Positions 41,435 through 61,272 of a DNA stretch of 64,000 nt are shown in pieces. The stretch's first letter is position 1. Each line of letters starts with the position of its first letter. The notes below the pieces were generated by a model. That model was given only the letters and a program-made list of their open reading frames with translations. It was not told the origin of the DNA and did not search any database. Origin of the DNA: Caldisericum exile AZM16c01 (lineage in GTDB: Bacteria; Caldisericota; Caldisericia; Caldisericales; Caldisericaceae); NCBI RefSeq assembly GCF_000284335.1, contig NC_017096.1, positions 186,001 through 250,000 of the forward strand, read 5' to 3'. The translations under genes were made by a program, and so were the position numbers.

Positions 41435-41461
41435 TTTTAAAGGCCTTTTAAGGAGGTGAAT

Positions 41462-44400: not shown

Positions 44401-47400
44401 TTCAAATTGGTGTACTTGCCAAGAATCAAACCATGATGAAGGGCAAGTTGAATTACCAACTTCATATGCTCTTGTTATTGTAAACTCTGCTAATTTTACA
44501 ATGTGCAGCGGAGGAAGTGTCGAAGTTCAAATAAGCAATCCTGGTATAACAAATATATACAATGCAAGTTTAACTGTTTTAATACCGAAGTATATTTCTT
44601 ATTCTGCTAATTCAACAACTTATTCTTATAATGGAGGTCCTCCTCAATCTGCAGGAGACCCAATGATATCTCCTATTTCAGGTGGAGATTACGATGGAGG
44701 TTATGAACTTGTCTGGGATAAAACTAAAATTTCACAACTTCAAGACCTTGCCCCAAATGACAATATTGTTTTGAAGTTTAACATTGCACCTGATAATAGT
44801 CAGCAATACTCTTCATGTGCTTTTCTCAAAAGTGGTTTTAAGAAAGTTAAGGCATATGCAAACTTTGCAAAACCATGTGATGTAAATAACCCATCTCTAT
44901 CTTCCAATATATTTGAAAAAGATTTTGAAACTTCTGCACCGGATTTGTTAATGACTAAGAAGGTTGTACAGATTGATAACCACGACATCTTACAGCCAGT
45001 TGAATACTTTCCACAAGAACTTGGCAAAGAGATAATTTTTGAAATTAAAATTACTAATAACGGAAAAGCAAGCACAATAAAGACAAATTTTGCAGATGTA
45101 TTAAAAGCACCCAATAGGCATCCTCTTATACTCCAATCTGCAGAGTACTCCTATGATGGTGGAACTTATAATTCTATTCCTTGGAGCGCTTCAACAGATG
45201 ACTCAAATAATACGATATACATCTGGAACAATATTGAAGGAACCTTAGGTCATGGAATTGAACCAAACAAGACGCTTACAATTAGAGTAAAGACAAAAAT
45301 TTCAGAAACTTGTACACAATATGTAGCGCATGAAATCTCGGAGTTGTGGACTGGTTGTTCAGACTTGCCTGATATGGGATTTTATGGAAACGGAAAAGAT
45401 TTGCTACTGTGGTCTGATCCATCTGTATGGAGTGGATTTGACGGAACTCTTTCTTCGGCGGATTGTCCTATTTACCAAGGAAAGTTTGCAAGAACTTATG
45501 GACATAAGGACTCTTGGGCTGTAGTATATAGTAATGATATACCTTCAAACATTAATGTTTGTGACCAAAACGTTCAGTTTGAGGTTGGATTTAAGAACGG
45601 TGAGGTTTATCAAGGTGCAACAACAATATATGGACCTTTAACAATTTTTGATGTTTTACCAAGAGGATTTGAATATGTATCCGGTTCAACTGAATTTCTT
45701 TTGCCTGGGCAAAATATTTGGATACCTGGGCTGGATCCAACTATTTCAACTCAAAATTGGATAACCTCAACTAACATAGATTGGAATGGGACATTTACGG
45801 TTTTGGAGTGGAACAAAGATAATAACTTAATTTTACAATCAATAAATATATCACCAGGTCAAGAGATTCATGTTAGATTTAAGGTGAACCTTAATTCATG
45901 TGTTAATGTAAAAGATGTAGATATAAACAGGCAAAGATTGGAAGGAAACGATTGTAGTGGTACTTTTAAATATTATTTTCCTGCAGGAAATGAACAGAAT
46001 TTTGACTGGTGGGAAAAAGACTACTGGCCTTATATACCTGATTACCCATGGATAAAGCAAGTAGATATTTTGAAACCAAAAATAACGATTGAAAAGACAG
46101 TTGATAAATCTTTTGCTTCACCTTCGGATTCGCTTCTATTTATGATTCACATAAAGAATACAGGCGATGGAGATTCTCGTCATTTTAAGATAATAGATAA
46201 AATTCCAAATGGATTTATTTTAGATTCTTCTTCAATTACTGATGGTCCACCACCAGGATATGGGACAACTTACACTTGGATGACACATACATATGATTCA
46301 AACACAAATACAATTACATGGCAGAGTAATCAGAGTCCAAATTACGAGTTTCCACATGGTGCAGAAACAACTGTATCTTTCAGAGTTCTTGTTTCTGGAA
46401 GCGCTTCAGGTGAAATAACAAATGAAGCAAAATTTGAAGACAATTGTTGTTACTCGGGAAGTAATATACTAACAAGCACAAAAACAGTAAAGATAACTTC
46501 AACACCAATAAGGGTTATTAAAGAAATTGTTGATGTAAATGGTATACCAGTAACGAGTCGTCCTGTAAGGACACAGCCAGGAGACCTTGTAAGATTCAGA
46601 ATAAAAGTCGAAAACAGAGGAAGTTTGCCAATTTACAATGTTGACGTCTATGATACATTGCCTAACGGAATTCAATATCAAGTAGGTTCATCAAGGTATG
46701 CTTTAACAAACGGAAGTCTTCCAACTACATGGACAAATACTACGGATCCACATGGTGCGCCGTATGACACGCCCCCAAGTCCTCCTCAGGGGTTCAGCGG
46801 ATTACAGTGGCATATCCAACAAACTCTTTTGGCAACAGACGATAACGGCGGTACAACTGGTGGAAATCTTGATACGCTTTACCTCGAATTCGTTGCAAAA
46901 GTTACAAGTGATGCACAGGGGTCACCTTCCGGAGAATATAATGTTAACACTTCAAACATGTCTGGGACAACTGACCAATTGGGGAATACTCCTATAGAAA
47001 GAAGTATAATTGAAACATCAAATGCATCAGACTGGTTCCTTGTGTATAAGCCGAGTTTGCTTATAACTAAAACTGTAACAAAAATTAACTCAAACGCTTC
47101 AAACACGACAAGAGTTGCACCTAACGACACTGTTACTTACCAAATAACAATTACCAACACTTCTTCGTTTGCAAAAGCCAAAAATATTACAATAAATGAT
47201 ACTTTACCTTACGGATTTTCGTATATCGATAATTCGTCATCTATATCTTGGTCTGAAGGAGGAAGTTCTAACGCAAATCCTACAATCTCGGGACAAAATC
47301 TAACATGGAATCTTATAAATGCAGTTATAAACTCTGGAGAATCTCTTATCCTTACATTCAATGCAAAAGTTACATCAAATGCAAACATTGGGCAAAACGA

Positions 47401-50400
47401 AAACATTGCTTCTGCCTTAGGATATGACCTCGATACGGGATCTTACTCTGCGAATTCTTTGGATGGGACAGGTGTTGCAAAGACATATGTTGTAGTTACC
47501 AAACCTGAAATTAGAGTTTCTAAGTTTGCTTCCATTTCAAATGTACCTGTTCAAACTCCGGTTACATTTACTATAAAGATTGAAAGTCTTGATTCATATG
47601 CAAAGCCAACTATTGTAGCAATCGTTGATAATTTACCCGTAGGGTGGGAGTATGTTCAAGGGTCCTCCTATTTAGTTAAAAATAATGGTGCAACTCCAAT
47701 TAATTGGGGAAGCGCAATTGTAGATCCATCATCTATAGCACAAACACTTACATGGAATGTCAATCAAATCTTAGATGCAACAGACGATCAGGGAGGTTCT
47801 TCTGGTAGTGCAAGCGATACTCTTTGGCTCAAGTTTCAGGCAACTCCTACAAATTCTTCCTTAGGGTGTTCTAACACAAATACTGTTTCTGTAAGTTGGG
47901 AAGATGGCTATGGCACCACGATGGCAGATGTGTCTTCTTCAACTAATGTTTGTGTTTGTTATCCAAAACTTGACATAGAAAAGAGTGCTAATAAAACCGA
48001 GGCAAGGATAAATGAAGATGTTGAGTTTACTATAAAGGTTTCAAACAAAAATCCTGTTGATGCATTCAATGTTGATGTGTATGATTATTTGTGGGGAGGT
48101 TCACAGTTTGTTCTAAATTCTGCTCAATATGCTTTAACAAATGGTTCAACTCCTTCAAGTTGGAATAATGCCCCAAATCCTTCTATTGATGGCACAACCT
48201 TACACTTTTACCTGAATATAACTATTGAAGGAACAGATGATAATGGTGGAGCAACTGGAAGCAAAAACGATACCCTATTCCTAAGATTCAAAGCACATCC
48301 AACAAGCGCATCTTCGTATGGAATAAATACAAATATGGCAGTTGCCGAAGGGAAAGATTCTGGTGGAAATCTTATTGGCTCACCTGTTGCAAGTGTTAGT
48401 ATTAATGTAAGGAAACCTGATATAACAATAACAAAATCAAGTAATCCAACATCTCAAAATGTTAATGGCACTATCACTTACACGATAACTGCAACAAACA
48501 ACGGGAATGAAAACCTTATAAATGGAACAATTATAGATACTCTACCTAACGGCGTAACCTATGTGTCAAGTGGTGGCGGAGGAGTTTATAACGCTGGACC
48601 TCCAGCAACCGTGACCTGGAACGGCGTTTCTATACCTGCAAACGGTGGAACATGGAGTGCAACAGTTTCTGTAAAGATAACAAAGAACGTTACGGATGGA
48701 GAAATTCTTACTAATTCTGTTTCAGGCTCTGGGACTGACACACAAGGCAACAATTACTCGTTTGGTCCTGCAACGGCTCAAACAACTGTAAATGCACCAA
48801 AACTTACGATTTCAAAAGTTGATTCTCCAGACCCTGTCAAAGCAGGGGGAAATATAACATATACAATAACTGTTTCAAATAACGGTTCAGCCCCGGCTTC
48901 TAATGTTGTAATAACTGATACCATACCTACGAATACTACTTTTGTTTCAGCATCATTCATTGCTGGTAGTGGGACAATTACAGATCCGGGCGTTGGTAAT
49001 ACTGGCACAGTTACCTGGGCCCTTGCAGGTACACTTGATGCAGGAAATTCAGTTATTGTTCAACTTGTAGTAAAAGTTAATTCACCGATAAATGACAATA
49101 CCATAATTCACAATACTGCAACTGTTGATTCCGAAGAACAAGGGCCTTTATTAGATACAGAGCAAACAATTGTCTCTTCTCTTCCAAATTTAGTTATTAC
49201 AAAGAGTGCGTCTGAAAATCCAGTAAGACAAGATAGAGATCTTACATACACAATTAGATGCGAAAATAGCGGAACAATGAATCTTACAAATGTTGTCGTT
49301 ACTGATACTCTGCCGAATGGAATAACATTTGTTTCGGCAACGCCTAATCCAACGAATATAAATGGTCAAACATTAACTTGGAATATTGGATCTCTTCCTT
49401 CAGGCTCATCTTTTAACATTATTGTTACAGTACATGTAAATCAAAATGTTCCTAGCGGCACTGTCTTAACAAACAGTGTTAATGCAACGTCGGATCAGGT
49501 TAGTGCAAGTGCAACTTGTGATACAACAATTGGTGCACCTGCTAATTTAACTATTTCCAAGTCAGATAATATTGACCCAGTTCCTGCTGGTCAAAATATT
49601 ATTTATACAATTAAGTATCAGAATACAGGTGGACAAACAGCAACAGGAGTTATGATTACTGATATACTTCCTTCTAATGTTATTTATGTCTCTTCAAATC
49701 CTTCTGGAACTTACAATTCAGGACCTCCTGCAACACTTACTTGGAATATTGGGTCTCTTCCTGCAGGTTCATCGGGTACAATTACAGTAACTGTTCAGGT
49801 GCCAGTTAATACTACAAACGGAACAGTGTTTACAAATAATGCAACCATTTCAAGTGATAATACAAATCCTGTAAGTGATTCTGAAGATACAACAGTTTTA
49901 AGTGCACCTGTTCTTACAATTAATAAAACTTCTACAATGCCACATAACCCAGCACAACCTGGAGATACTGTAACCTATACAATCACATATGGAAATAATG
50001 GAAACCTTACTGCAGCAAATACATTTATTGTTGATAAAATTCCTGCTAATACAAAATTTATAGTAGGAAGCGTTACAGGAGAGCAAGGAGTTTCAATTGA
50101 GTATTCAAATGATAATGGGACCACTTGGACCTATACTCCAGTTGACTCTGGTGATGGAACAGATCTAAATGTGACAGATATAAGATGGACTATTGGAAGC
50201 CTTGCTCCTAATATTACAAATCAAACTGCTTCATTTAAGGTTAAGATTAATTCTCCTCTTCCAAATGGAACAATTATTACAAACACAGCAACTATTGATT
50301 GTGATCAAACCAATCCTGTAAACGCACAAAATGATTTTATGGTTGGTTCAACACCTAACCTTCACATTACAAAGACAGGACCATCAAATGTTAATGCAGG

Positions 50401-53400
50401 CGATACTATTACATACACCGTAGAATACTGGAACGATGGTAATATGACAGCAACAGGTGTTGTTATTACAGAAACATACGATGCAAATGTAGAATTTATT
50501 TCAGCAACGCCATCTCCTGATACAGGTACAAATAACAGATGGACAATAGGTAATGTTTTTGTAGATAACACACACCATACAATAACGATAACAGTTAAGG
50601 TAAAATCTCCTCTACCTAATGGCACTGTAATCCATAACACAGTAACTATCGATTCAGATCAAACTGATCCAAAAGATGCAACATTTGATACAACAGTTGG
50701 TTCTGCACCAATCTTAACTATTACAAAGGTAGATACGCAAGACCCAGTACAAGCAGGTGATAACATCATATATACAATAACAGTAGGTAATACTGGTAAT
50801 GCACCTGCAACAAATGTCGTAGTTATAGACACAATTCCAGCAAATACTACATTTGTCTCTGCAAGATTCATTTCAAAAGCAGGCACAATTGATGCTCCAA
50901 CTGTAGGTGGAACAGGCACAGTGAAGTGGACTCTTACAGGAAGTCTCAACCCAAATGAAGAATTCGTCGTTGAACTCATCGTAAAAGTTAATAAACCTCT
51001 TGATAACGGAACGATTATTCATAATACTGCACATGTATCTTGTGCAGAAGATACCTCAGGTAAAGATTCCTCGACTGACACAAAAGTGGAAAGTGCTCCC
51101 ATTCTTTTGATAGACAAAGTTGATCTCCATGATCCGGTAAATGCAGGAGACAATATTACCTACCGAATTACCATTTCAAATACGGGCAATATGAATGCCC
51201 ACAATGTTATCATAACTGATACAGTGCCAAACAACACAACATTTGTTTCAGCATCATTCATAACTGGCAGTGGAACGATTACTGCACCTAACCCAGGTTC
51301 TACAGGCACTGTAACCTATACTTTATCAAATACCCTTGACATTGGCACATCAGTTGTGGTTGAGCTTGTTGTCAAGACAAACACACCTCTTCCAAACGGC
51401 ACACAGATTCAAAATACAGCATCTGTAAAATCTTCAGAAATTCAAACACCCATTACCGACTCTGAGATTACAACGATAGGCTCTTCACCAGTTCTTCAAA
51501 TTGCAAAGGTTGGTTCTCCAAATCCTGTGTCTGCTGGTCAGAATATAACTTATACAATTACCGTCAAGAATGTCGGTAATATGGATGCAACACAATTTAT
51601 AATAACTGATTCAGTACCTCCAAATACGACATTTGTCTCTGCAAGATTTGTCAGTGGGGCAACTGGCGCTATAAATGCACCTCAGGTAGGGGGTAGTGGA
51701 ACTGTCGAATGGATTCCCAATCCTAATACACTTCCAGTTGGTGCTACTGTTGTTGTAGAATTAGTTGTAAAAACTTACAATTCGCTTCCATCAGGCACAG
51801 TTATTACTAATACTGCTTATGCAGATTCTGCGCAAACTCAGCAAATTGCTTCTTCAACTACAACTACTGTGGGTGGCGAACCCATTCTTAAGATTTTCAA
51901 GAGTGCATATCCAACAGAACAAGCACCAAAAGGAGTTATAATTTACTCAATTAGATATGTAAACGAAGGAAATGCACCTGCAACGAATGTAGTAATTCAG
52001 GAAAGCTATCCTCCAGAAGTTGAATTCTTTTATGCAAACCCTATGCCAACATATAATACAAATACTTGGGTAATTCCTAAACTGGATGCAAGTAGTGAAG
52101 GCTACATTACGGTTGCCGTTAAAGTGAAAGAGAATATCCCCCTTACAATTCCGCCAGTTAAAGTTACAAATACTGTGAGCATCCGTTCGACTGAGGTTCA
52201 AAATCCTGTATCTGCAAGTGCTTCATTTGAAGTTAAAGCACCTAATTTCTGGGATCCAGCGAATGTGACCCAAAGAAAAGAAGTAGACCCAAAGGGAAAT
52301 GTAGCTCCAGGTATGTGGCTTACTTATACGAACTATTTTGGCAATTCAGGTAATGCACCTGCAACTAATGTCTATATCATAGATACTCTTGATACAAACC
52401 TTGATGAGACTACACTACAAATTTCTGATGGCACAATTCCTGGTACAACCCACACTTATAATGCGATCAGAAGAGAGATAATATGGCATATACCAGTAAT
52501 TCAACCTGGCGAAAATGGTTCAGTTTCATTCAAGGTAATGGTAAGGAGCACGATTAACGGATATACGCTAATTTCTAATACGACAACAATCAAATCAGAT
52601 CAGAATCCAGAAGGAGTGCAAACGAATACTGTTTATAACACAGTTATTGCGCCTTGCCCTGTTACTCCCATACCTCCTACTCCACCAACCCCTTCTTACT
52701 CAATCAATCTCTCCATTAATGTGCCGGAAACAATTTGTGCTTCTGCTATCCAAAAGTATGTATTTACCTTTACAAATGGAACTCCACCTTATGTTTATGA
52801 AATTGACTTTGGCGATAATTCGATGATAATTAAAGGAGAAGAGAGTGGTAACTTCATCACACTTGAACACATCTATCAAAAGTCAGGTAATTACGAAATT
52901 AACCTCAAGGTTAAAGATAAGAGCGGAAAAGAAGCAACATTATCATACCCTATTCAGGTGAAAGATTGCATTGAAGAAATTTCTATCTATCACCACAACT
53001 TCATTATAGGGTATCCAGATAACACAGTAAGGCCAGAAAGGAACGTCTCAAGAGTAGAAGTTGCAGCAATGATTTTAAGAGCATTAGGTATAAGCGTTAA
53101 CAACATAAGAGATGACATAATTCCATTCAAAGATATTCCCATAACTCATTGGGGCTATAACTTCACAAGGCAGATATACCTTGAAGGTCTAATGCAAGGT
53201 GATGAAAAAGGAAATTTCAATGCGGATAGGTTTGCAACAAGGGCAGAAATTGCAGCAGTTCTTGTTAGACTAAAAGGAATTTCAATAGATACAGGCGATC
53301 CGCTCTTCAAGGATACCGAACCCAAAAAATGGTATACTCCATATATCACAGCAGCAGTAAAAGCTGGTCTTATAACGGGCTATCCTGATAAGACATTCAA

Positions 53401-53788
53401 ACCTAACAATAATGTTACAAGGGCAGAATTTGTTGCAATGCTTGAAAGAGTCCTTTATAGAACAGATGTGCCGCAAGTTAAAAATTTAATCTCTACGGAA
53501 AACATTATAAACTGGAAAGATATTACAAAAGCTCATTGGGCATACTACATCATGCTTGAAGCATGGCAACCTCATATTGTGAAAAACGTCGTCCTTATAG
53601 ACACCGTTATTAAGGTTAAATCCAAAATCATTCCTGTTTATCTGCCAAAGCCAAATACAGTTATAGAATTTCCTAAGATAGGCACAACCATTTCTTCTGT
53701 CATTGTGCCTGTTGTCGGTATTGTTAACGACAAATTGCCTCAACCTCGAAACGTCTTTGTTAAAATAATCAATACCGAATCGCCATAA
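41462..53788 (+). CDS. Giant S-layer-anchored surface protein (DUF11 repeats, PKD-like domain, three SLH domains)
   Basis: A 4,108-residue exported protein. ATG 41462 is used because AAGGAGGTG precedes it. The signal peptide ends near residue 27. About 1,650 residues of diverse DUF11-like beta domains follow, with many cysteines, often as CG, CC or C-x-G pairs. Four longer domains lie at about 46500-48410, three of them carrying the pattern DDNGG-x-x-GS/GN-x-DTL. Then come 11 tandem DUF11 repeats (48413-52650), a proline linker, one PKD-like domain (about 52700-52970) and three SLH domains (about 52975-53470). SLH domains bind pyruvylated cell-wall polymer, so the C-terminus is cell-attached and the repeats project outwards, as an S-layer, sheath or adhesin. 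The last 100 residues are of unknown fold. Confidence 0.88.
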   Translation: MRKKLLSLYVAAIMVLNLVPWGKVIAAPSLSVLPSTSQQVEVNTDAIYKVTITNPCSENDVINITFSTPSSGWNVALYDSDNATLLSDHNGDGIPDTGSLQRDESKDIYVHVRPSSSVCNGSQLQTTITATSTNGNCGGSATVTLTTTAVNEGILVITEEVSPNEAKVGDTVTWTIHIKNVSSNPIGNVHISDTLGSGISYPTNFTFYPQPSSGTFPNWVYNEIPTNTEYTISFNTVILGCKEAQNVVDAWWGVEENSACQTQHVLSSVKIKPTVPNIQFSAPNISVPYCGSTDVTIPITNNGDGVAKNFKLKIDTIPSGYQISNFGQNWNYNSQTGEFIYLGGNPQGTINPNETVNLAFTVSMPQGACSLPSATLKFFSEYLDPCGDPYTTPSLLGSISVSGSGAYFTISKEGPDPVDIGETNKTYTIFVTYHKGNCSSDTVTVDIKDTLPNPFIPQSASDSGQINGQTVIWDNIILQDGVLKKLTITFNVSTEPCYAGQEYTNTVQITGPNGETLTDCCGCPIQNVSATWKTYVNDPSLAIVDSKKSASPSSIEIDCSTDVGPYTNPSGNADSHNDRRYTVEYDFNTGTNAPSSWNNTDGNGGHIIFRDQLNNNQFTNAQIGNVKIEVSCDGGNSWNDLSNYATVTYPANIGDPLVIDLAQLEGHACPPNSGAKLRISFTARATQTNDLNNSKVSYDYIDWSTLEIPGFPRGCFTDPKYYEGVRVTDIRANLTISANLTQTVEKCAIYNLTINFSKDNANVDHADLTLTLNGFTYISNSTTYSDGGLWCSGTKGEPSVSQDGKTLTWAYSQINEVSSNGSITIQVKKDCSNNASIVFSSNYLDNCGKSHTSSGSESSILIKSAVLYTKLTPQYNFAYAHTVDWKVYVINGGDGTAREIILTTILGNGLSFSSQDAYIKIGNTTYYYGDTNITWPSNGSTGTLTWGLNNLSIDPAQQVEVYFKTDVNTCDITNLKVEAYSNWCTCQESNHDEGQVELPTSYALVIVNSANFTMCSGGSVEVQISNPGITNIYNASLTVLIPKYISYSANSTTYSYNGGPPQSAGDPMISPISGGDYDGGYELVWDKTKISQLQDLAPNDNIVLKFNIAPDNSQQYSSCAFLKSGFKKVKAYANFAKPCDVNNPSLSSNIFEKDFETSAPDLLMTKKVVQIDNHDILQPVEYFPQELGKEIIFEIKITNNGKASTIKTNFADVLKAPNRHPLILQSAEYSYDGGTYNSIPWSASTDDSNNTIYIWNNIEGTLGHGIEPNKTLTIRVKTKISETCTQYVAHEISELWTGCSDLPDMGFYGNGKDLLLWSDPSVWSGFDGTLSSADCPIYQGKFARTYGHKDSWAVVYSNDIPSNINVCDQNVQFEVGFKNGEVYQGATTIYGPLTIFDVLPRGFEYVSGSTEFLLPGQNIWIPGLDPTISTQNWITSTNIDWNGTFTVLEWNKDNNLILQSINISPGQEIHVRFKVNLNSCVNVKDVDINRQRLEGNDCSGTFKYYFPAGNEQNFDWWEKDYWPYIPDYPWIKQVDILKPKITIEKTVDKSFASPSDSLLFMIHIKNTGDGDSRHFKIIDKIPNGFILDSSSITDGPPPGYGTTYTWMTHTYDSNTNTITWQSNQSPNYEFPHGAETTVSFRVLVSGSASGEITNEAKFEDNCCYSGSNILTSTKTVKITSTPIRVIKEIVDVNGIPVTSRPVRTQPGDLVRFRIKVENRGSLPIYNVDVYDTLPNGIQYQVGSSRYALTNGSLPTTWTNTTDPHGAPYDTPPSPPQGFSGLQWHIQQTLLATDDNGGTTGGNLDTLYLEFVAKVTSDAQGSPSGEYNVNTSNMSGTTDQLGNTPIERSIIETSNASDWFLVYKPSLLITKTVTKINSNASNTTRVAPNDTVTYQITITNTSSFAKAKNITINDTLPYGFSYIDNSSSISWSEGGSSNANPTISGQNLTWNLINAVINSGESLILTFNAKVTSNANIGQNENIASALGYDLDTGSYSANSLDGTGVAKTYVVVTKPEIRVSKFASISNVPVQTPVTFTIKIESLDSYAKPTIVAIVDNLPVGWEYVQGSSYLVKNNGATPINWGSAIVDPSSIAQTLTWNVNQILDATDDQGGSSGSASDTLWLKFQATPTNSSLGCSNTNTVSVSWEDGYGTTMADVSSSTNVCVCYPKLDIEKSANKTEARINEDVEFTIKVSNKNPVDAFNVDVYDYLWGGSQFVLNSAQYALTNGSTPSSWNNAPNPSIDGTTLHFYLNITIEGTDDNGGATGSKNDTLFLRFKAHPTSASSYGINTNMAVAEGKDSGGNLIGSPVASVSINVRKPDITITKSSNPTSQNVNGTITYTITATNNGNENLINGTIIDTLPNGVTYVSSGGGGVYNAGPPATVTWNGVSIPANGGTWSATVSVKITKNVTDGEILTNSVSGSGTDTQGNNYSFGPATAQTTVNAPKLTISKVDSPDPVKAGGNITYTITVSNNGSAPASNVVITDTIPTNTTFVSASFIAGSGTITDPGVGNTGTVTWALAGTLDAGNSVIVQLVVKVNSPINDNTIIHNTATVDSEEQGPLLDTEQTIVSSLPNLVITKSASENPVRQDRDLTYTIRCENSGTMNLTNVVVTDTLPNGITFVSATPNPTNINGQTLTWNIGSLPSGSSFNIIVTVHVNQNVPSGTVLTNSVNATSDQVSASATCDTTIGAPANLTISKSDNIDPVPAGQNIIYTIKYQNTGGQTATGVMITDILPSNVIYVSSNPSGTYNSGPPATLTWNIGSLPAGSSGTITVTVQVPVNTTNGTVFTNNATISSDNTNPVSDSEDTTVLSAPVLTINKTSTMPHNPAQPGDTVTYTITYGNNGNLTAANTFIVDKIPANTKFIVGSVTGEQGVSIEYSNDNGTTWTYTPVDSGDGTDLNVTDIRWTIGSLAPNITNQTASFKVKINSPLPNGTIITNTATIDCDQTNPVNAQNDFMVGSTPNLHITKTGPSNVNAGDTITYTVEYWNDGNMTATGVVITETYDANVEFISATPSPDTGTNNRWTIGNVFVDNTHHTITITVKVKSPLPNGTVIHNTVTIDSDQTDPKDATFDTTVGSAPILTITKVDTQDPVQAGDNIIYTITVGNTGNAPATNVVVIDTIPANTTFVSARFISKAGTIDAPTVGGTGTVKWTLTGSLNPNEEFVVELIVKVNKPLDNGTIIHNTAHVSCAEDTSGKDSSTDTKVESAPILLIDKVDLHDPVNAGDNITYRITISNTGNMNAHNVIITDTVPNNTTFVSASFITGSGTITAPNPGSTGTVTYTLSNTLDIGTSVVVELVVKTNTPLPNGTQIQNTASVKSSEIQTPITDSEITTIGSSPVLQIAKVGSPNPVSAGQNITYTITVKNVGNMDATQFIITDSVPPNTTFVSARFVSGATGAINAPQVGGSGTVEWIPNPNTLPVGATVVVELVVKTYNSLPSGTVITNTAYADSAQTQQIASSTTTTVGGEPILKIFKSAYPTEQAPKGVIIYSIRYVNEGNAPATNVVIQESYPPEVEFFYANPMPTYNTNTWVIPKLDASSEGYITVAVKVKENIPLTIPPVKVTNTVSIRSTEVQNPVSASASFEVKAPNFWDPANVTQRKEVDPKGNVAPGMWLTYTNYFGNSGNAPATNVYIIDTLDTNLDETTLQISDGTIPGTTHTYNAIRREIIWHIPVIQPGENGSVSFKVMVRSTINGYTLISNTTTIKSDQNPEGVQTNTVYNTVIAPCPVTPIPPTPPTPSYSINLSINVPETICASAIQKYVFTFTNGTPPYVYEIDFGDNSMIIKGEESGNFITLEHIYQKSGNYEINLKVKDKSGKEATLSYPIQVKDCIEEISIYHHNFIIGYPDNTVRPERNVSRVEVAAMILRALGISVNNIRDDIIPFKDIPITHWGYNFTRQIYLEGLMQGDEKGNFNADRFATRAEIAAVLVRLKGISIDTGDPLFKDTEPKKWYTPYITAAVKAGLITGYPDKTFKPNNNVTRAEFVAMLERVLYRTDVPQVKNLISTENIINWKDITKAHWAYYIMLEAWQPHIVKNVVLIDTVIKVKSKIIPVYLPKPNTVIEFPKIGTTISSVIVPVVGIVNDKLPQPRNVFVKIINTESP
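48413..52650 (+). repeat. Eleven tandem DUF11 repeat units inside the giant gene
   Basis: Each unit is about 350-450 nt and starts near P-x-L-x-I-x-K followed by D-P-V-x-AG-x-x-I-x-YTI and a later VVITDT-IP-NTTFVSA. Starts are near 48413, 48797, 49183, 49543, 49910, 50355, 50709, 51099, 51490, 51880 and 52243. Units beginning at 48797, 50709, 51099 and 51490 are closest to each other. Confidence 0.8.
52975..53470 (+). other. Three SLH (S-layer homology) domains in the giant protein
   Basis: SLH1 contains GYPDNTVRPERNVSRVEVA, SLH2 THWGYNFTRQIYLEGLMQG and ATRAEIAAVLVRL, SLH3 YITAAVKAGLITGYPDKTF and VTRAEFVAMLERVL. A partial fourth WKDITKAHWAYYIMLEAW follows. These attach the protein to the secondary cell-wall polymer. 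Confidence 0.9.
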
Positions 53789-53838: not shown

Positions 53839-53869
53839 TTGTCTTGAATAACCTTGACTTTTTTAGAAT

Positions 53870-53889
53870 ATATGCGAAAATGTGCATAT
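53870..53889 (+). promoter_or_regulatory. Operator-like inverted repeat over the arsR start codon
   Basis: ATATGC (53870-53875) and GCATAT (53884-53889) are separated by 8 bp; the right arm covers the A and T of the start codon at 53888. TTGACT (53854-53859) lies just upstream. The ATG has no Shine-Dalgarno, which suggests a leaderless or very short-leader message. Confidence 0.5.
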
Positions 53890-54271
53890 GAGCAAATATG
53901 ATAGTATTTTTAAAGCAATTGGGGACGAAAAGCGGCTAAAACTATTACTTCTCATTATAAAAGGTGGAAAAGAATATTATGTTTGTGAACTAACCTATGC
54001 AATGGGGGAAAACCAATACAACATTTCCAAGTATTTGAGGGAGTTAAAATTAGCGGGACTCTTGAAAGAAAGAAAAATTGGTCGTGGAGTGCTTTACTCC
54101 CTTGAAAATGGAGATGAATTTAACAATCGCTTATTTGCACTCTTAAATGGAATACCAAACGAGTATATCAAAGATGCTATTATAAGGCTTAATTATGTTG
54201 TATCAAATAGAGCTAATGATCAATGTGTAAATATTGCAAAATTAGATAATATCAAATCAAAATTTAATTGA
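53888..54271 (+). CDS. ArsR-family winged-helix repressor
   Basis: A 127-residue ArsR/SmtB-type regulator: KYDSIFKAIGDEKRLKLLLLI, then YYVCELTYAMGENQYNISKYLRELKLAGLLKERKIGRGVLY, covering the DNA-recognition helix and wing. One cysteine sits in the alpha3 position (VCEL) where metal- or thiol-sensing members have CVC; another lies near the C-terminus (DQCVN). It probably controls itself and the zinc-binding protein gene 12 bp downstream. The inducer is unknown. Confidence 0.85.
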   Translation: MSKYDSIFKAIGDEKRLKLLLLIIKGGKEYYVCELTYAMGENQYNISKYLRELKLAGLLKERKIGRGVLYSLENGDEFNNRLFALLNGIPNEYIKDAIIRLNYVVSNRANDQCVNIAKLDNIKSKFN

Positions 54272-54283
54272 GGAGGTCAAGTT

Positions 54284-54724
54284 ATGGAAGAAGAAAAGAA
54301 AGAAGTAACTCAGTTTGAAAATTAGAATCTTTTACCATCATGCGGTAAGGAATCGGCAAACCTCGACATTATTTTTGCATGTGATGGTGCTGCAAGTGTT
54401 GGACAGATTGGAAACGAAGTTGCAAAGGACTTAACGAGGAGAGGTGTTGGAGCAAGAATGTGTTGCACTGCGGCAGTTGGGGCAGGCTCAGAAACGCATG
54501 TAAACATTGGTAAAAACGCAAAGCGTGTCATTGTTATAAATGGATGTTCAATGAAATGCGCTTCGAAAATTATGGAGCAAAGAGGCATTAAGATTGATTA
54601 TGAGTTCACTATTAGTGAAATGGGCGTAAAGAAAATTCCAACTCTTGATTTCAATCAAGAAAATGTTGATAGAATTGCAGAAATTATAGGAGACACAGTT
54701 GGGTATAATAACAATATGAAGTAA
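54284..54724 (+). pseudogene. Putative zinc-binding (DGC-type) protein gene with an in-frame TAG
   Basis: ATG 54284 behind GAGGAGGTC opens a 147-codon frame interrupted only by TAG at codon 14 (54323-54325). After it the frame runs without fault to TAA: PSCGKE, IIFACDGAASVGQIGNE, ARMCCTAAVGAG and VINGCSMKCASKIMEQRG, the conserved cysteine blocks of a small thiol/zinc-binding family often paired with ArsR regulators. No ATG, GTG or TTG lies between the stop and codon 59. It is either a freshly inactivated gene (one substitution, for example CAG to TAG) or is expressed by readthrough. Confidence 0.75.
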
Positions 54725-54752
54725 ATTCGTATGTTGATTTTTCAAAGTAAAC

Positions 54753-54780
54753 GGGGACATACAAGTCCCCTTACTTTTAT
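54753..54780 (+). terminator. Terminator of the arsR pair
   Basis: GGGGAC (54753-54758) and GTCCCC (54765-54770), followed by TTACTTTTATT. Confidence 0.75.
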
Positions 54781-54845
54781 TAACAATTATGGATTGTTTA
54801 CATTTTATGTTATAAATTGTTAGAACTTAAAAAAGGAGGTGCATT

Positions 54846-55241
54846 ATGATTAGCAATGTTTTGTTGCACATTGTGGTTATGGCTGTCGGGTTTATTTTTG
54901 TTCTAATTGGTGCTGTTATTGGGGCAAAGGACGTAGGAGAAAAAAAGATAAATTTACACAAAACCATTGGGGTTTTAGGCGTTTTGATTTTCCTTTTGGG
55001 ATTTATTGGACTTCTTGCAACAGGCAGTTTAAAGCCAAATCTACCTCACTTCTACTTTGCAATCTTGTCATTAATTTTTGCCATTCTAACAATTATTGGT
55101 GGTATAGCTTACACGAGGGCTCAGATAGAAAACAAACTCCCATTGAGGAAGTCACACAGAGCAGATGCTATTCTCACAATTATGCTTGTTCTTATAACTA
55201 CTTTTTTTGGTGTAATCGGGTTGCAATTTTTGTCTAAGTAA
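54846..55241 (+). CDS. Small four-helix membrane protein, unknown function
   Basis: A 131-residue integral membrane protein with four hydrophobic segments (about 5-27, 41-60, 67-90 and 108-128). Histidines stand close to the membrane segments (H8, H39, H68, H103), a layout that resembles small haem-binding membrane proteins such as cytochrome b561 relatives, but I cannot confirm this. AAAAGGAGGTG precedes the ATG at 54846. It is flanked by a terminator upstream and a hydrolase remnant downstream, so it is probably transcribed alone. Confidence 0.7.
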   Translation: MISNVLLHIVVMAVGFIFVLIGAVIGAKDVGEKKINLHKTIGVLGVLIFLLGFIGLLATGSLKPNLPHFYFAILSLIFAILTIIGGIAYTRAQIENKLPLRKSHRADAILTIMLVLITTFFGVIGLQFLSK

Positions 55242-55297
55242 TCTTTTACAAAAAAGTTTTTAAAAATGCTTGATAGTAGGGGATTAAAGAATTTAAA

Positions 55298-55836
55298 GTG
55301 AAAGAAGAATTTATTGTAATTCCTAATTCGAAATTCGTTGATGTATTTAACATAAAAATACACTACAAAGATATTGGTTTTGGTAAAAATATATTTCTTC
55401 TCATTCATGGATTTGGTGCAGGCACTTTTTCGTTTGATCCTATTTTTGAAAACCTTTCAAGATTTGGACGTGTTGTTGCGTTGGACTTACCTGGCTTTGG
55501 ACTTTCCAAAAGGCCTCCTAAAAATTTAAATGGCATTAATCCATACAGTAGGTATGGTCAAGTTGAAGTTTTGAAGGCATTTATTGAGAAACTCGATCTC
55601 AAAGACATCGTCCTTATTGGCCATTCTATGGGTGGAAGTTTACTAAAAATTTTAATGTAAAAACGCTTGTAGTAGTTGGTTCAAATGATGAAATTATATC
55701 CAAAAATAGCATTATGAATTTTGCTTTATCGTTAAAAGAAGCGAAATTTGTTGAAATAAATGATTGTGGTCATATACCGCACGAGGAGAAACCAGAAGAA
55801 TTTCTCCGTGTATTACAGGAATTTTTGGGATTATAG
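55298..55836 (+). pseudogene. Alpha/beta-hydrolase gene with an internal deletion
   Basis: From GTG 55298 the frame encodes a normal hydrolase N-terminus: LLIHGFGAGTFSFDP, VALDLPGFGLSKRP and the nucleophile elbow LIGHSMGGSL. It then breaks near 55640-55648. Beyond the break another frame gives VVVGSNDEI (acid region) and NDCGHIPHEEKPEEFL (catalytic His), ending at TAG 55836. The lid domain and about 80-100 residues between nucleophile and acid are missing, and the join is out of frame. The enzyme cannot be made intact. Confidence 0.8.
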
Positions 55837-55966
55837 CACTTTTGTTTGTAAATTGTAAACAAATTAAGGTTTAAATCCTAATAAAGATTTTAAGGTGCAT
55901 TTTATTTTCTAAATTTTTGGAACTTTTTCGACACATCTTGTATCTAATATTATGGGAGATGGAAAA

Positions 55967-56959
55967 ATGGAGAATATTTTTAGAAGAAGAATTTTAAGCG
56001 TATTGGTATTTGTTTTAGTTGTTATTGTGGTTTTTGCGGGTTGTAGCGGTGTAAAAACTAATAAAAACCCAAAACCCATGCAGGGGCAAGGTAATATTGT
56101 TGTTCCTGAAGATAACGGAATTGTTGCAGTTTATCTTGCACCCAAGGATAACGGCGTATTGACTAATTCTGATTTAAAAGCACATCCAGAAATTCTTAAA
56201 GTAAGTGATTTTGAATCGCTTACCACTTTAACAAACAGATATATTATTCCTATTTGGATTGACAAAGATGCAATAGATTTACTTCCCAAGGGTTGGCTTA
56301 ATGAACCACCACAGAAATTCTACCCGATAATAGTTGTAGGATGTAGCGATGTGCTCTATGTAATGCGGGATAGACTTGGGCTTCCTATTTTTGGTCCGTA
56401 TGTGGATTGGGGTAAGAAAATCGTAGGATCTGGCTTTAGCGTCTGGATGATAACTGCAACTTCCGAAGGTTCCATCTCTTCAACTCTTAAAGGGTATGTG
56501 GGAGATATAGATATTTCTAAAATTCTTGAGGAGAGTAATGCACTTTTCAAGGAATGTTTTAGAACGCTTAAATACACAAATACAGAGTATGGTTTTAATT
56601 TTTACCTTCCTTTGACTTGGAGCAATTATAAGGTGATTGAAGACAAGTGGACTGGTTATAAAACTGGTGCAAGTGGTGGTGAAGTTACCGAAACTGGTCC
56701 TATGATACTCATAAGGAACCCTCAATGGGCAGAAAAAGAGCCAACTCAAGATATACCAATAATGATTTTTACAATTTCAGAGTGGAATGACCTTGAGAAC
56801 GAAAAGTTTCACATAGGTGCAGCGCCCATTGGCCCAACAGAACTTGGAAGAAACTCAAAATATGTTTTTGCACTTCCTGCACGCTATAATTATGCCTTTC
56901 CTAAGGGGTTTGAAATTGTTGATGAAATAATGCAAAGTAATCCACTTGAAGCGTTTTGA
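55967..56959 (+). CDS. Lipoprotein of unknown function
   Basis: A 330-residue predicted lipoprotein: RRR followed by a strongly hydrophobic segment ending VFAG before Cys26. Start 55967 is favoured over ATG 55952 because GGGAGATGG lies between them. The mature part has an alpha/beta-like section (IVVGCSDVLYVMRDRLGLP; about 125-145) and, from about residue 205, a section YTNTEYGFNFYLPLTWSNY that looks like the small PsbP/DUF-type domain found in other secreted proteins. I recognise no enzyme motif. It lies between two gene remnants. Confidence 0.65.
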   Translation: MENIFRRRILSVLVFVLVVIVVFAGCSGVKTNKNPKPMQGQGNIVVPEDNGIVAVYLAPKDNGVLTNSDLKAHPEILKVSDFESLTTLTNRYIIPIWIDKDAIDLLPKGWLNEPPQKFYPIIVVGCSDVLYVMRDRLGLPIFGPYVDWGKKIVGSGFSVWMITATSEGSISSTLKGYVGDIDISKILEESNALFKECFRTLKYTNTEYGFNFYLPLTWSNYKVIEDKWTGYKTGASGGEVTETGPMILIRNPQWAEKEPTQDIPIMIFTISEWNDLENEKFHIGAAPIGPTELGRNSKYVFALPARYNYAFPKGFEIVDEIMQSNPLEAF

Positions 56960-57453
56960 TTATGGAAACACTTTTAAAGAATGAGCGAAACGCTTGATAC
57001 ACTTGTAATAAATTGAGAGATCCCCGCTATTATTTTAGGATGGAGCAGGCAAAAGCCACAATACATTCTTGTGTCAAAGGATTTTGGAGCGCACTTTGAA
57101 AATGTGTCGAATGTCAATATCGGCCTTACGAATAATTTTGTTAAGCAAATAGCAATTGACCCAAAGAATCCTTACCGTGTTTACTTTGCAACATGGAAGG
57201 GGCTTTTTGTATCAAACGACTTTGAAAAAAGTTTTACGCTTCTTACAAGCGATTTTTGGTATCTTTAACGCTATTGTAATCGTTAACAGTTCCCCCAACC
57301 TTATTTTCTTATTAACAGAAAAAGGTATTGCAAAATCAAATGATCACGGCAAAACGTTTAAAATTGTTAAGACAAGCAGTGGTGATATCTTCAAAAGCAT
57401 ACTTTTTGCAAGTCCAGACAACCCTAAGGTTATTTTTGTAAGAAATGATTGAT
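56960..57453 (+). pseudogene. Fragments of a beta-propeller (BNR-type) protein gene
   Basis: Three broken frames carry propeller-type repeats: DYGNTFKE right after the lipoprotein stop; then SKDFGAHFENVSNVNIG and AIDPKNPYRVYFATWKGLF; then, in a shifted frame from about 57255, FLLTEKGIAKSNDHGKTFK and ASPDNPKVIFVRND. The pattern matches the protein at 36809. No start codon with a ribosome site and no complete domain remains. Confidence 0.75.
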
Positions 57454-57789
57454 GGGCTTACTGTTTCCTATGATGGGGATGAAATCTGACTAACTCTATA
57501 ATAGAGTTATATTTTCTTCTGTAGGTTCTCTTAAAATAAACAAGCATAAAATGGGTGAATACTTCATTATTAGGTTAAACATGGGAAACTCGCTTTTTTA
57601 AGAAAAAAGAATAAAATAATAAAGGAATTTGAAGTCCTTATCAAAGGCAACATAGTCATATAAATTGAGGATTTTTGGGATTTTTCTTTTATTTGTGCTT
57701 AATTTGATAACATTTTGTAATCGCGCAATCTTTTAGCTTGATTTTCAAAGTTGTCAACTTCCATAATAGCTTGTGTTTTCTAAATTTTT
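57454..57789. other. Gene-free AT-rich gap
   Basis: No gene. AACTCTA-TAA-TAGAGTT (about 57492-57508) is a small perfect inverted repeat. Otherwise I see nothing in it. Confidence 0.6.
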
Positions 57790-58482
57790 TTAGTTAAATT
57801 TGCTATTTTCGTTATCGTTATATAAATGCTCAATGAACAAAGCTACTCCAGTAATAAGTTTTGTATTTGTCCTGTAAGAATACTTAAAGTTATCACCATT
57901 TAGATAATATGTCGCTGGAAGATGAGCATTTTGACCATACCATGCATAAGCACTCGATGGTTCCAATGTTGCGTAGATTATGTCTTTTGCATTAACAGGC
58001 TGTATTACATCAATTGTTCCGTTAATTGCGTCTTCTACTATTAAAAGGTTATCTTTAATTATAAAACTTGAACCTGGTGTAAGTATTATACGTTTAAAAA
58101 TAATTATTGTGTCGGGGAATAGATTTAATGATGTTACAAAGTCATATTTTTTATAAAAGAAGGGAATTAAGCATAAACCAAATGTGGCGTTGCCTTCTCT
58201 TATTGTTGGCCAAGATGAATGTCCTATTGTTCTTATAAAAGTGAGTGCAAAGAATACTAAGCTTGCTAAAACAGTATAAACTATGGAATAAAGTAATAGT
58301 GATAAAATGGAAATATCTTTGGTAGGTAACAAAGAAGGAATAAGAAAGATTAACGACATTCCTAAAAAGACCAAAATGTAACATGTTAGTGATTCCCATA
58401 TAAGTATTACTATTTTTATTATTATAACTTCTATATTTGGATTTATTTTTTCCATATTCATAAAATTATACCTATTACTCAT
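57790..58482 (-). CDS. Divergent signal peptidase I-like membrane protein (S26 family)
   Basis: A 230-residue protein with two long hydrophobic regions (about 18-50 and 56-86). Directly behind them is GHSSWPTI (87-94), matching the SPase I box G-x-S-M-x-P-T with candidate nucleophile Ser89. Lys130 in IFKRIILTPGSS fits the catalytic Lys box (KRVIGLPGD), and LNGDN (194-198) matches the GDN box. The Ser-Lys gap of 41 is close to that of Gram-positive signal peptidases. Boxes C-E are degenerate, so activity is uncertain. The start is at 58482 with a poor GAAGAA site; ATG codons 8 and 10 are alternatives. It points away from the HU-like operon at 58749. Confidence 0.65.
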   Translation of the reverse strand: MSNRYNFMNMEKINPNIEVIIIKIVILIWESLTCYILVFLGMSLIFLIPSLLPTKDISILSLLLYSIVYTVLASLVFFALTFIRTIGHSSWPTIREGNATFGLCLIPFFYKKYDFVTSLNLFPDTIIIFKRIILTPGSSFIIKDNLLIVEDAINGTIDVIQPVNAKDIIYATLEPSSAYAWYGQNAHLPATYYLNGDNFKYSYRTNTKLITGVALFIEHLYNDNENSKFN

Positions 58483-58588
58483 TATTTCTTCAATATCAAT
58501 AAAAAATAGTTACGAATATAAAGCACACATTTTCAATTATATTATGATAGCGAATTTTTCTACAAAATCAATTTTGAGCAGTTATATT

Positions 58589-58610
58589 CGTAAAAGTTTT
58601 CTATTTTACG
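58589..58610. promoter_or_regulatory. Inverted repeat in the divergent gap
   Basis: CGTAAAA (58589-58595) and TTTTACG (58604-58610) with an 8-bp spacer. A second palindrome CTATTT-TAT-AAATAG is at 58668-58682, and a TATAAT at 58730-58735 sits before the HU-like gene. Confidence 0.35.
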
Positions 58611-58748
58611 GCTGATAACTCATAAGAGTATTTTTGAGTAGTGTTAATTAGTGCAATGTATTATTTCCTATTTTATAAATAGAAAAACAAAACAGTCATT
58701 TTTAAGCAAACTTTTTCCAAAATTTTTACTATAATAATAAGGAGAAAG

Positions 58749-58970
58749 ATGATTAAAAAGGGAGATTTTTTCATGCAACAAATCAAAAATTCTAACTTTT
58801 TAAAGACGGTTATTGAGGAATCCCTAAAGAATCACAATGCAGTGCATATTAAACACATAGGAACATTTTACCCTGTTGAATATATTTCTGAAAGAAATGG
58901 GAAAATCATAAAAACCCAAACATTTGCATATAAAAAAACGCATACACAAAGTTTAAAACAAAAAAGATAG
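58749..58970 (+). CDS. Mini HU-like protein
   Basis: A 73-residue basic protein (65 if ATG 58773 is used; GGAG serves the first start, AGGGAG the second). FLKTVIEESLKNHNAVHIKHIGTF followed by an R-x-GK turn resembles the second half of HU (helix 2 and the GFGTF strand), but the intercalating NP-TG arm is shortened. The C-terminus is rich in Lys, Thr and Gln. DNA binding is plausible but unproven. It is the first gene of a four-gene run, 11 bp before the helical-repeat protein. Confidence 0.6.
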   Translation: MIKKGDFFMQQIKNSNFLKTVIEESLKNHNAVHIKHIGTFYPVEYISERNGKIIKTQTFAYKKTHTQSLKQKR

Positions 58971-58981
58971 GAGATGATAAA

Positions 58982-59998
58982 ATGGATGCAAAGAAACTTG
59001 CCAAGCTTACTTATGATGAGTTTATTAAAAGTAAAAAAGCAATGACAGAAAACATTAATATCGAAATAGATCCACTTGCTAATGTAATTGTAAATTTTGA
59101 TTACTATTCTGAAAGCGAAAAGCATGAAATTTTGCAGAGACTTGAAAGAGTTTCACCTTACCACTACTATCTGTTTAAATCCCTTATGGTAGAAAATTTG
59201 GAAGACAAAATAGAATTTATTGATAAAGCAAAAGAAGAAAGTAAAAAACAGAAAATAATTTATATAGATGATTTAGCATTTGCCATTGCGAAACTTGAAT
59301 ATCTACTTAAGAAGAATAAAGACACGGATCGAATAGATGAAGAAACGGCAAAACAGATAGGAAAAGAAGCACATACGATTTATAAGAAAACCAATGAAAA
59401 GGATTTTGGTGAAATGGCATTGCATTACCTCTATATAGGCGGACACAAAGAAACTGCACTTCGCTTAATGTATGAAATGTTTCGAAAGCACAAAAACTTC
59501 TCACACAAGTTTTATATTGATGCTATAAATGTTTCTCTTACATTTTTCGATACAGAAACTGCAACAAAATTGCTTAGCATAGCAAAGTTTGTTTTACCTA
59601 AAAAACAGTATGCGATAGTTTTGACTAATTACTTCTACCGAACTACAGACAACATTCCAGACCAATTCATAAAAGAAGCGTATGAAAATATAAGCGAAAT
59701 TTTAAGCGAACCGTCTAATATTGAATATTTTGCAGAAGGTTTGTTTAAGAGGGGAGAATACAAAGAAGCAAGTAATTATTACATGAAAGCAGCGCGATTA
59801 TATCTTGAAAGAGAAAAAGAAGATGTTTTTAATCTCTTATTAGATCTTTCAAAAAGGTGTTATTTTAGAGCCATTGAATCTCTTGCTTTGGCAAACAATA
59901 AAGAAAAGGCTCGTAAAATATTAGAAGATGCAAAAGAATACTATCCTGACATTACAGAAACTGAAATTTCAGCCTTAAAAAAGGAGTATAACTTATGA
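58982..59998 (+). CDS. Helical-repeat (TPR-like) protein, unknown function
   Basis: A 338-residue soluble protein with no signal peptide. From about residue 60 it is almost all helix pairs, with TPR-like spacing near the C-terminus (YFAEGLFKRGEYKEASNYYMKAARLYLERE, about 250-280, then ALANNKEKARKILEDAKEYYP, about 307-327). The N-terminus (about 1-55) is separate and acidic. It is probably a scaffold for protein contacts. TAGGAGATG precedes the ATG, and its stop overlaps the next gene by 4 bases (ATGA), so the two products are likely coupled. Confidence 0.7.
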   Translation: MDAKKLAKLTYDEFIKSKKAMTENINIEIDPLANVIVNFDYYSESEKHEILQRLERVSPYHYYLFKSLMVENLEDKIEFIDKAKEESKKQKIIYIDDLAFAIAKLEYLLKKNKDTDRIDEETAKQIGKEAHTIYKKTNEKDFGEMALHYLYIGGHKETALRLMYEMFRKHKNFSHKFYIDAINVSLTFFDTETATKLLSIAKFVLPKKQYAIVLTNYFYRTTDNIPDQFIKEAYENISEILSEPSNIEYFAEGLFKRGEYKEASNYYMKAARLYLEREKEDVFNLLLDLSKRCYFRAIESLALANNKEKARKILEDAKEYYPDITETEISALKKEYNL

Positions 59999-60411
59999 AG
60001 GTATTGAAGCGATACTTTACAGAGCAATTTCTTTTTAATTATTTGTTGACTGTCACTTTAGCAATTATTATACCAGTGTTATTTATAAAGAGATTTCATA
60101 TTCCTTTTGATATAAAGACAATCGTTTTCTTTGCCGTTTCAATATTACTTACTGGTATAACATATGACATCTCTACAAGAGATAAGATTTTATTTGAAAG
60201 TGTGTTTAGTTATTTCTACTGTTTAGTAAGAGGATATAGCCCCAATGGAATTTCGCCATTTATGTATGTTATCCTGCTTGGATCAACGTTTTTTGTATTC
60301 CAAATACTTCTTATTAATGAAGTTGTAAGACACCTTAAGGAGTTATTCTTTTTTAAGATTGGCGCAGTTTTTATGGCTACATTTTTACTCCTTATTTTTT
60401 TCTTAATATGA
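59995..60411 (+). CDS. Four-helix membrane protein, unknown function
   Basis: A 138-residue integral membrane protein translated from the ATGA overlap with the helical-repeat gene. Hydrophobic segments lie at about 11-31, 40-58, 88-107 and 117-138, with a short basic N-terminus (MKVLKRYF). No family motif is recognised. The tight coupling to the preceding gene suggests a complex of a soluble scaffold and a membrane part. Confidence 0.7.
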   Translation: MKVLKRYFTEQFLFNYLLTVTLAIIIPVLFIKRFHIPFDIKTIVFFAVSILLTGITYDISTRDKILFESVFSYFYCLVRGYSPNGISPFMYVILLGSTFFVFQILLINEVVRHLKELFFFKIGAVFMATFLLLIFFLI

Positions 60412-60453
60412 GTTTACGAAATCTAAACCTTCGCGATATGGGGGGTGAGCGAT

Positions 60454-60843
60454 TTGAAATTTGTAATTATAGATGAAGAAAAAGAAATAGCATTGTACAA
60501 CGCCTTACCACAGAGTGTTATGCAAGTAATAAAATCTGAGGTTTTATTGCAAAGAAGACTATTAGGCCTTATCACATTTATAGATACTGGTGTCTATTTG
60601 CCTATCGTAGTTGCTATTCTTTATCCAAGATATGTGTATTTGTGTATTGCAATTACAGTATCTTCTTTTGTAATATCACTTTTTATTTGGAAAAAGATTT
60701 CAAACTTAGACATTCTTATGAAGACAAAGATACCATATCTTTCTTCATATCTTAAAGATCCTTATGTTGGTGCTTTTCAACAGACAGTGCCTCACAAAGT
60801 TTTGTTTTCGTTTAAGAAAGGTAAAAAAGTGAAGCAAGTTTAA
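60454..60843 (+). CDS. Two-helix membrane protein, unknown function
   Basis: A 129-residue protein with an N-terminal cytoplasmic-type part (about 1-35), two adjacent hydrophobic segments (about 36-56 and 59-77) and a basic C-terminal tail ending in KKGKKVKQV. The layout resembles small PrgI/DUF3137-like membrane proteins only in general shape. The start is taken as TTG 60454 because GGGGGTGAG lies six bases upstream and would overlap GTG 60445. The gene follows its neighbour by 42 bp and closes the four-gene run. Confidence 0.6.
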   Translation: MKFVIIDEEKEIALYNALPQSVMQVIKSEVLLQRRLLGLITFIDTGVYLPIVVAILYPRYVYLCIAITVSSFVISLFIWKKISNLDILMKTKIPYLSSYLKDPYVGAFQQTVPHKVLFSFKKGKKVKQV

Positions 60844-61272
60844 TTAAAAAATAGGAAGTGGCGAAAGATAGGCTATTACTTCCTTATGCTACAAATATCA
60901 TCTTTTTTCTTCGGAATGTATGAGACAAATTGCAGTAGTAGAAATTAAAAGCGTCTTCTAAAAGGTTTAAAAAATATCTTGTTTTGAACTTCCGATTTTA
61001 TGAGTTCTATTGCTTAAGTATGCCTCAATACCACTAAAAATTTCATTTTGGCGATGCTTATGAGTATAGACTCAGTAGTAAAAATGTTTATTAAGGATAT
61101 TTTTAATAACTCCATATGCGAAACTTCAGTTAAGAATTTTCATATTAGATATTCTACAAAAACAAATTTAAATTTATTACTTTTTTAAATGAAGTTTTTA
61201 CCAATCAATTTTGAATCTTTTTAATCCTATAAAAGCAAAAATGAGTTATAATATGAATGAAAGGAGGAAGTT
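60844..61272. other. Gene-free AT-rich gap with a hairpin and a promoter -10
   Basis: AGGAAGT (60853-60859) and ACTTCCT (60878-60884) flank an 18-nt loop behind the last gene of the run and may end its transcript. TATAAT at 61247-61252 lies 15 bp before the peroxiredoxin ribosome site. I see no gene. Confidence 0.55.

Follow-up and report, generated by a model that had tools for sequence, protein, structure and literature searches.

A species-restricted, AT-rich gene cassette of Caldisericum exile encoding a putative divergent signal peptidase-like protein

The RRNPPA systems are built on TPR pheromone receptors whose peptides are matured by signal peptidase (PMC9765709), and a TPR protein located beside a signal peptidase-like protein is likewise encountered in a compact locus of Caldisericum exile AZM16c01. 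The second of these two proteins, P0001, shares with the type I signal peptidases (S26; TIGR02227) an N-terminal TM anchor and the box order Ser ... Lys-Arg ... Pro-Gly ... GDN...S. With an estimated probability of about 0.6, the five ORFs of this locus constitute a species-restricted, AT-rich accessory cassette of approximately 3-3.5 kb, situated in a rearranging and decaying 6.5-kb region and encoding a membrane-associated complex with an S26-like peptidase.

Gene layout and the divergent control region

The window analysed here, a stretch of 64,000 nucleotides, comprises bases 186001-250000 of a single contig of 1,558,103 bases. All five ORFs of the preliminary description, one on the minus strand and four on the plus strand, are present at the coordinates it gave, and its features are numbered below from the first base of the window.

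54729-61260, no strand: variable island, missing in the congener G011 from the interval that separates its ArsR/DGC genes from its peroxiredoxin operon
57790-58482, minus strand: P0001, membrane protein of 230 aa carrying SPase I (S26) boxes
58483-58748, no strand: divergent control region, 266 bp, 23% GC, with candidate promoters and operators
58510-58521, plus strand: inverted repeat, left arm TTACGAATATAA, an exact 12-mer
58582-58593, minus strand: inverted repeat, right arm TTACGAATATAA, with 60 nt between the arms
58668-58682, no strand: short palindrome/hairpin CTATTTTATAAATAG
58749-58970, plus strand: P0002, basic protein of 73 aa, weakly similar to HU/IHF
58982-59998, plus strand: P0003, 338-aa all-helical TPR-like solenoid, soluble
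59995-60411, plus strand: P0004, 138-aa polytopic orphan membrane protein, about four TM segments
60445-60843, plus strand: P0005, 132-aa orphan membrane protein, two TM segments

The five ORFs are real, well-bounded genes. Those of 230, 338, 138 and 132 aa exceed the longest ORF (113 aa) found in 300 mononucleotide shuffles of the block; the 73-aa ORF of P0002 is unremarkable in length against the same shuffles, and its ATG is preceded by a AAGGAGAAAG ribosome-binding site. The co-directional plus-strand genes are spaced by 11, -4 and 33 nt, and the ATGA overlap previously noted is real, with the stop of P0003 and the start of P0004 sharing positions 59995-59998. By direct reading, P0005 could begin at TTG 60454 instead of GTG 60445, and M8 or M10 are possible starts of P0001. 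The five-gene block has a GC content of 29%, compared to 36% for the window.

The two palindromes earlier placed in the divergent gap do exist, but an inverted repeat of at least 12 bp also appears in 8 of 400 shuffles of the 266-bp gap. The exact TTACGAATATAA 12-mer occurs only twice genome-wide, at 58510 and 58582, and the repeat it forms is a candidate operator; since 2% of shuffles of this AT-rich gap do as well, the assignment is a fair guess and not a result. The gap also holds the hairpin CGTAAAA..TTTTACG, and its RNA fold is ordinary (z=-0.93). Searches for Rfam families, tRNA and tandem repeats were all negative.

Features of the five proteins

The signal peptidase boxes that had been recognized in P0001 are boxes B, D and E, and they stand in order at S89, K130 and GDN196. 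Hydropathy places two N-terminal TM regions (residues 16-55 and 56-87) ahead of box B, which reads SSWPTIREGN and follows the second of them; box D (FKRIILTPGS) presents its Lys 41 residues past the Ser, and box E (GDNFKYS) lies a further 66 residues past this Lys. The strict box pattern was retained in none of 200,000 shuffles of P0001, and among the long frames of the window it is found in P0001 only. The match to TIGR02227 (E=0.016, 15.1 bits) falls far below the curated cut-off of 47 bits, and Pfam returns no family for the protein. A local profile built from 25 SPases of the phylum scores P0001 at 0.3 bits, which is not significant where shuffles reach 8.2 bits, and the evidence for an SPase is therefore positional. 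From its sequence, P0001 is read here as a putative S26-like peptidase that has diverged but keeps its dyad intact.

The description of P0002 as a reduced HU-like protein held in part. Two HU profiles match at E of about 0.003, namely PF00216 (HU/IHF; E=0.0038, 17.9 bits against a gathering score of 22.4) and PF14908 (HU-CCDC81; E=0.0031), both below their cut-offs, and HU is not among the top 50 Foldseek matches of the P0002 model. That single-sequence model displays two helices followed by three strands, with a core pLDDT of 82-88 and lacking a third helix, an order that fits a shortened HU and makes a weak HU identity possible. Elsewhere in the genome, near an intact HU at 65853-66122, a third match of HU type (G000:C1:67813-68049; L003) contains an internal TAA.

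The view of P0003 as TPR-like was upheld by weak TPR profile fragments, an all-helix model and TPR superhelices among its Foldseek matches. The short TPR-like profile matches lie at residues 251-274 and 293-323, the best of them reaching 15.8 bits against a Pfam gathering score of 23.5. The single-sequence model folds into 19 helices, with a pLDDT of about 80-90 in the C-terminal part and low confidence in the N-terminal part, and its best structural matches include TPR superhelices at E of about 0.002-0.01. Whole-model TM-scores are about 0.2-0.37, a poor superposition that is expected because the N-terminus is of low confidence. A TPR-like solenoid is well supported.

The two small membrane proteins were also confirmed, with hydropathy assigning about four TM segments to P0004 and two to P0005. 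Neither belongs to a family in Pfam or PADLOC, nor convincingly to one in NCBIfam or the annotated PHROGs, and for P0003 the same four collections give nothing beyond TPR-type hints, in agreement with the earlier statement that none of the three larger operon products could be assigned to a known family. Weak hints include an IcmT/TraK match for P0005 (E=0.094) and, for P0004, a PHROG family of unknown function (E=0.003 over 31 residues). Among matches examined and discarded, one of P0004/P0005 in G107 crosses four stops and is attributed to chance, as is a 39-residue, TM-biased match of P0005 to ORF405 of a propeller cluster in G011, of a kind expected by chance over many queries.

A variable spot and a restricted distribution

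The cassette lies in a variable spot. Where the window carries an island of 6.5 kb, the congener G011 has 85 bp; its ArsR and DGC genes match window positions 53853-54728, and the match resumes at 61261 with its peroxiredoxin operon. In three further congeners the spot is occupied by other genes, which as we read them are another small lipoprotein-like gene ahead of the peroxiredoxin in G009 and a kinase-like gene upstream in G010 and G012, and it is this differing content between the flanks that identifies the spot as variable. Before the island, positions 41456-53788 of the plus strand hold a giant ORF of 4110 aa that combines 17 DUF11 stretches with SLH domains at its C-terminus, likely an S-layer-anchored surface protein. 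The DGC-domain gene at the island's edge (54284-54724, plus strand) bears an in-frame TAG (MEEEKKEVTQFEN*NLLPSCGK...) where the G011 copy (L027) is open, and is either a pseudogene or the product of a sequencing error.

Decay is evident within the island itself. An alpha/beta hydrolase pseudogene (55298-55840, plus strand) follows a relative of 342 aa (L063) over residues 61-171 and, after a change of frame, over residues 275-334. A frameshifted fragment of a BNR/sortilin-like propeller lipoprotein (56966-57440, plus strand) covers residues 434-592 of the 744 that make up L060, and this family is present in many copies across the genus. The broken hydrolase, the propeller fragment and an intact 335-aa lipoprotein, also carried by the island, all have relatives elsewhere in the family; the five-gene block begins directly past the decaying genes, and no relatives of it were found. 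The idea that the block interrupts a propeller gene was dropped, as a search beyond the block for the gene's downstream half came up empty. In G011, lipoprotein/propeller cluster copies of identical score occur on two contigs of the one genome (L037 on C9 and L049 on C49), reflecting either a duplication or an assembly artefact.

The block is restricted to the species among the genomes searched. The phylum-level set comprises 54 genomes, and the 53 besides the source genome contain no relative of P0003 and no convincing relative of P0001, P0002, P0004 or P0005; one match to a query other than P0003, in G042 (E=0.006), crosses a stop and was not taken as a relative. Genomes of the family match the DNA of the block only over stretches of 26-59 bp. 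A sample of 386 genomes, in one search of which two candidates per genome were scored, yielded chance matches or short SPase-like matches and no convincing relative of the five; a match to the C-terminus of P0003 in G290 falls in an ORF read as a TolC-like outer-membrane factor and is regarded as chance helix similarity. Pattern scans of 85,000 genome species were negative, as were the searches of viral contigs, phages and plasmids; pattern scans detect close relatives only, and the concatenated-protein queries used in several of the searches are somewhat less sensitive than single-protein ones. Against the anti-phage defence models of PADLOC, none of the five matched a family at E<=1. The preliminary description had proposed to look for the same gene order in related genomes, but the searches turned up no convincing relative of these proteins and the gene set recurs in no other genome searched. 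Its reading as a conserved system is not supported. Because no second copy was found, gene order cannot test a joint function.

The cassette was probably acquired recently or is fast-evolving. No mobility gene or integrase, tRNA or terminal repeat was seen to mark the block, and acquisition is for this reason unproven against fast divergence or loss in relatives; because GC drops across the block, acquisition is judged the likelier course when set against loss elsewhere.

Possible joint role and relation to known systems

If the five products act together, the plus-strand genes would be co-transcribed and would make a membrane-docked complex, with TPR-like P0003 as a cytosolic scaffold on P0004 and P0005. 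P0001, as an S26-like Ser-Lys peptidase, would work at the outer face of the membrane and trim a substrate that is either exported or membrane-bound, and the small HU-like P0002 may bind DNA, either in the AT-rich control region between the divergent genes or more generally. As a whole, this combination of scaffold complex, peptidase and DNA-binding protein is the likeliest mechanism, yet by itself a doubtful proposition. Most speculative is a stricter version, for which the odds are long: a horizontally acquired membrane device private to the lineage, in which a divergent S26 peptidase acts with two new small membrane proteins and a TPR scaffold, and a regulator with a reduced HU fold binds the TTACGAATATAA inverted repeat.

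Other explanations assign these parts no joint role. An integrated virus or plasmid remnant, in which membrane proteins, DNA-binding protein and peptidase are leftover cargo, would suit an AT-rich, orphan block in a variable spot adjoining decaying genes, but the phage, plasmid and viral collections hold no matches, neither integrase, tRNA nor end repeats were seen nearby, and structural or replication genes are missing from the block, all of which leaves such a remnant unlikely. Next in order of probability, and rather unlikely, are fast-evolving chance neighbours, a divergent SPase paralogue with its own role standing next to a separate TPR/membrane operon; the divergent orientation of P0001 and the lack of a second locus to show linkage agree with this account, against which the uniformly low GC and the common 266-bp control region with its genome-private inverted repeat argue modestly.

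An undescribed, dedicated processing/secretion or nucleoid-to-membrane device, along the lines of the preliminary description, is a further, still less probable explanation. Peptidase boxes, a scaffold, membrane proteins and a possible HU fold are the parts that such a device would employ, but it recurs in no genome searched, its HU assignment is weak and no substrate was seen. The accessory cassette remains the preferred explanation; with no second copy in any genome searched, it does not yet qualify as a system. Orphan cassettes of poorly known thermophile phyla may hide new membrane and processing systems, and this locus offers five well-bounded genes, two family-less membrane proteins and a clear comparison with an empty site. 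Its main value is as a starting point for searches as genomes of Caldisericota and mobile elements accumulate.

Each component can be compared with a better-known relative. An RRNPPA pheromone system was set aside, given that P0003 gives no HTH domain match and no propeptide gene was noted. The predicted fold of P0003 shares with TPR alpha-solenoid proteins (consensus TPR, LbcA) an all-helical superhelix of antiparallel helix pairs, but passes no curated TPR cut-off. P0002 shares the IGTF motif region, the predicted H-H-E-E-E order and a basic character with HU/IHF and HU-CCDC81, and differs from these families in its short N-terminal helices, shortened arm and unmodelled third helix. P0001 departs from the type I signal peptidases in reading SSWPT instead of SM.PT in box B, in the absence of DSR after box E, and in a stretch of 66 residues from Lys to GDN compared to 50 in SPase I. 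A canonical SPase I is encoded separately in the genome, at 583614-584075, and the boxes of this enzyme are collinear with those of P0001, with a Ser-Lys spacing of 43 residues compared to 41 in P0001.
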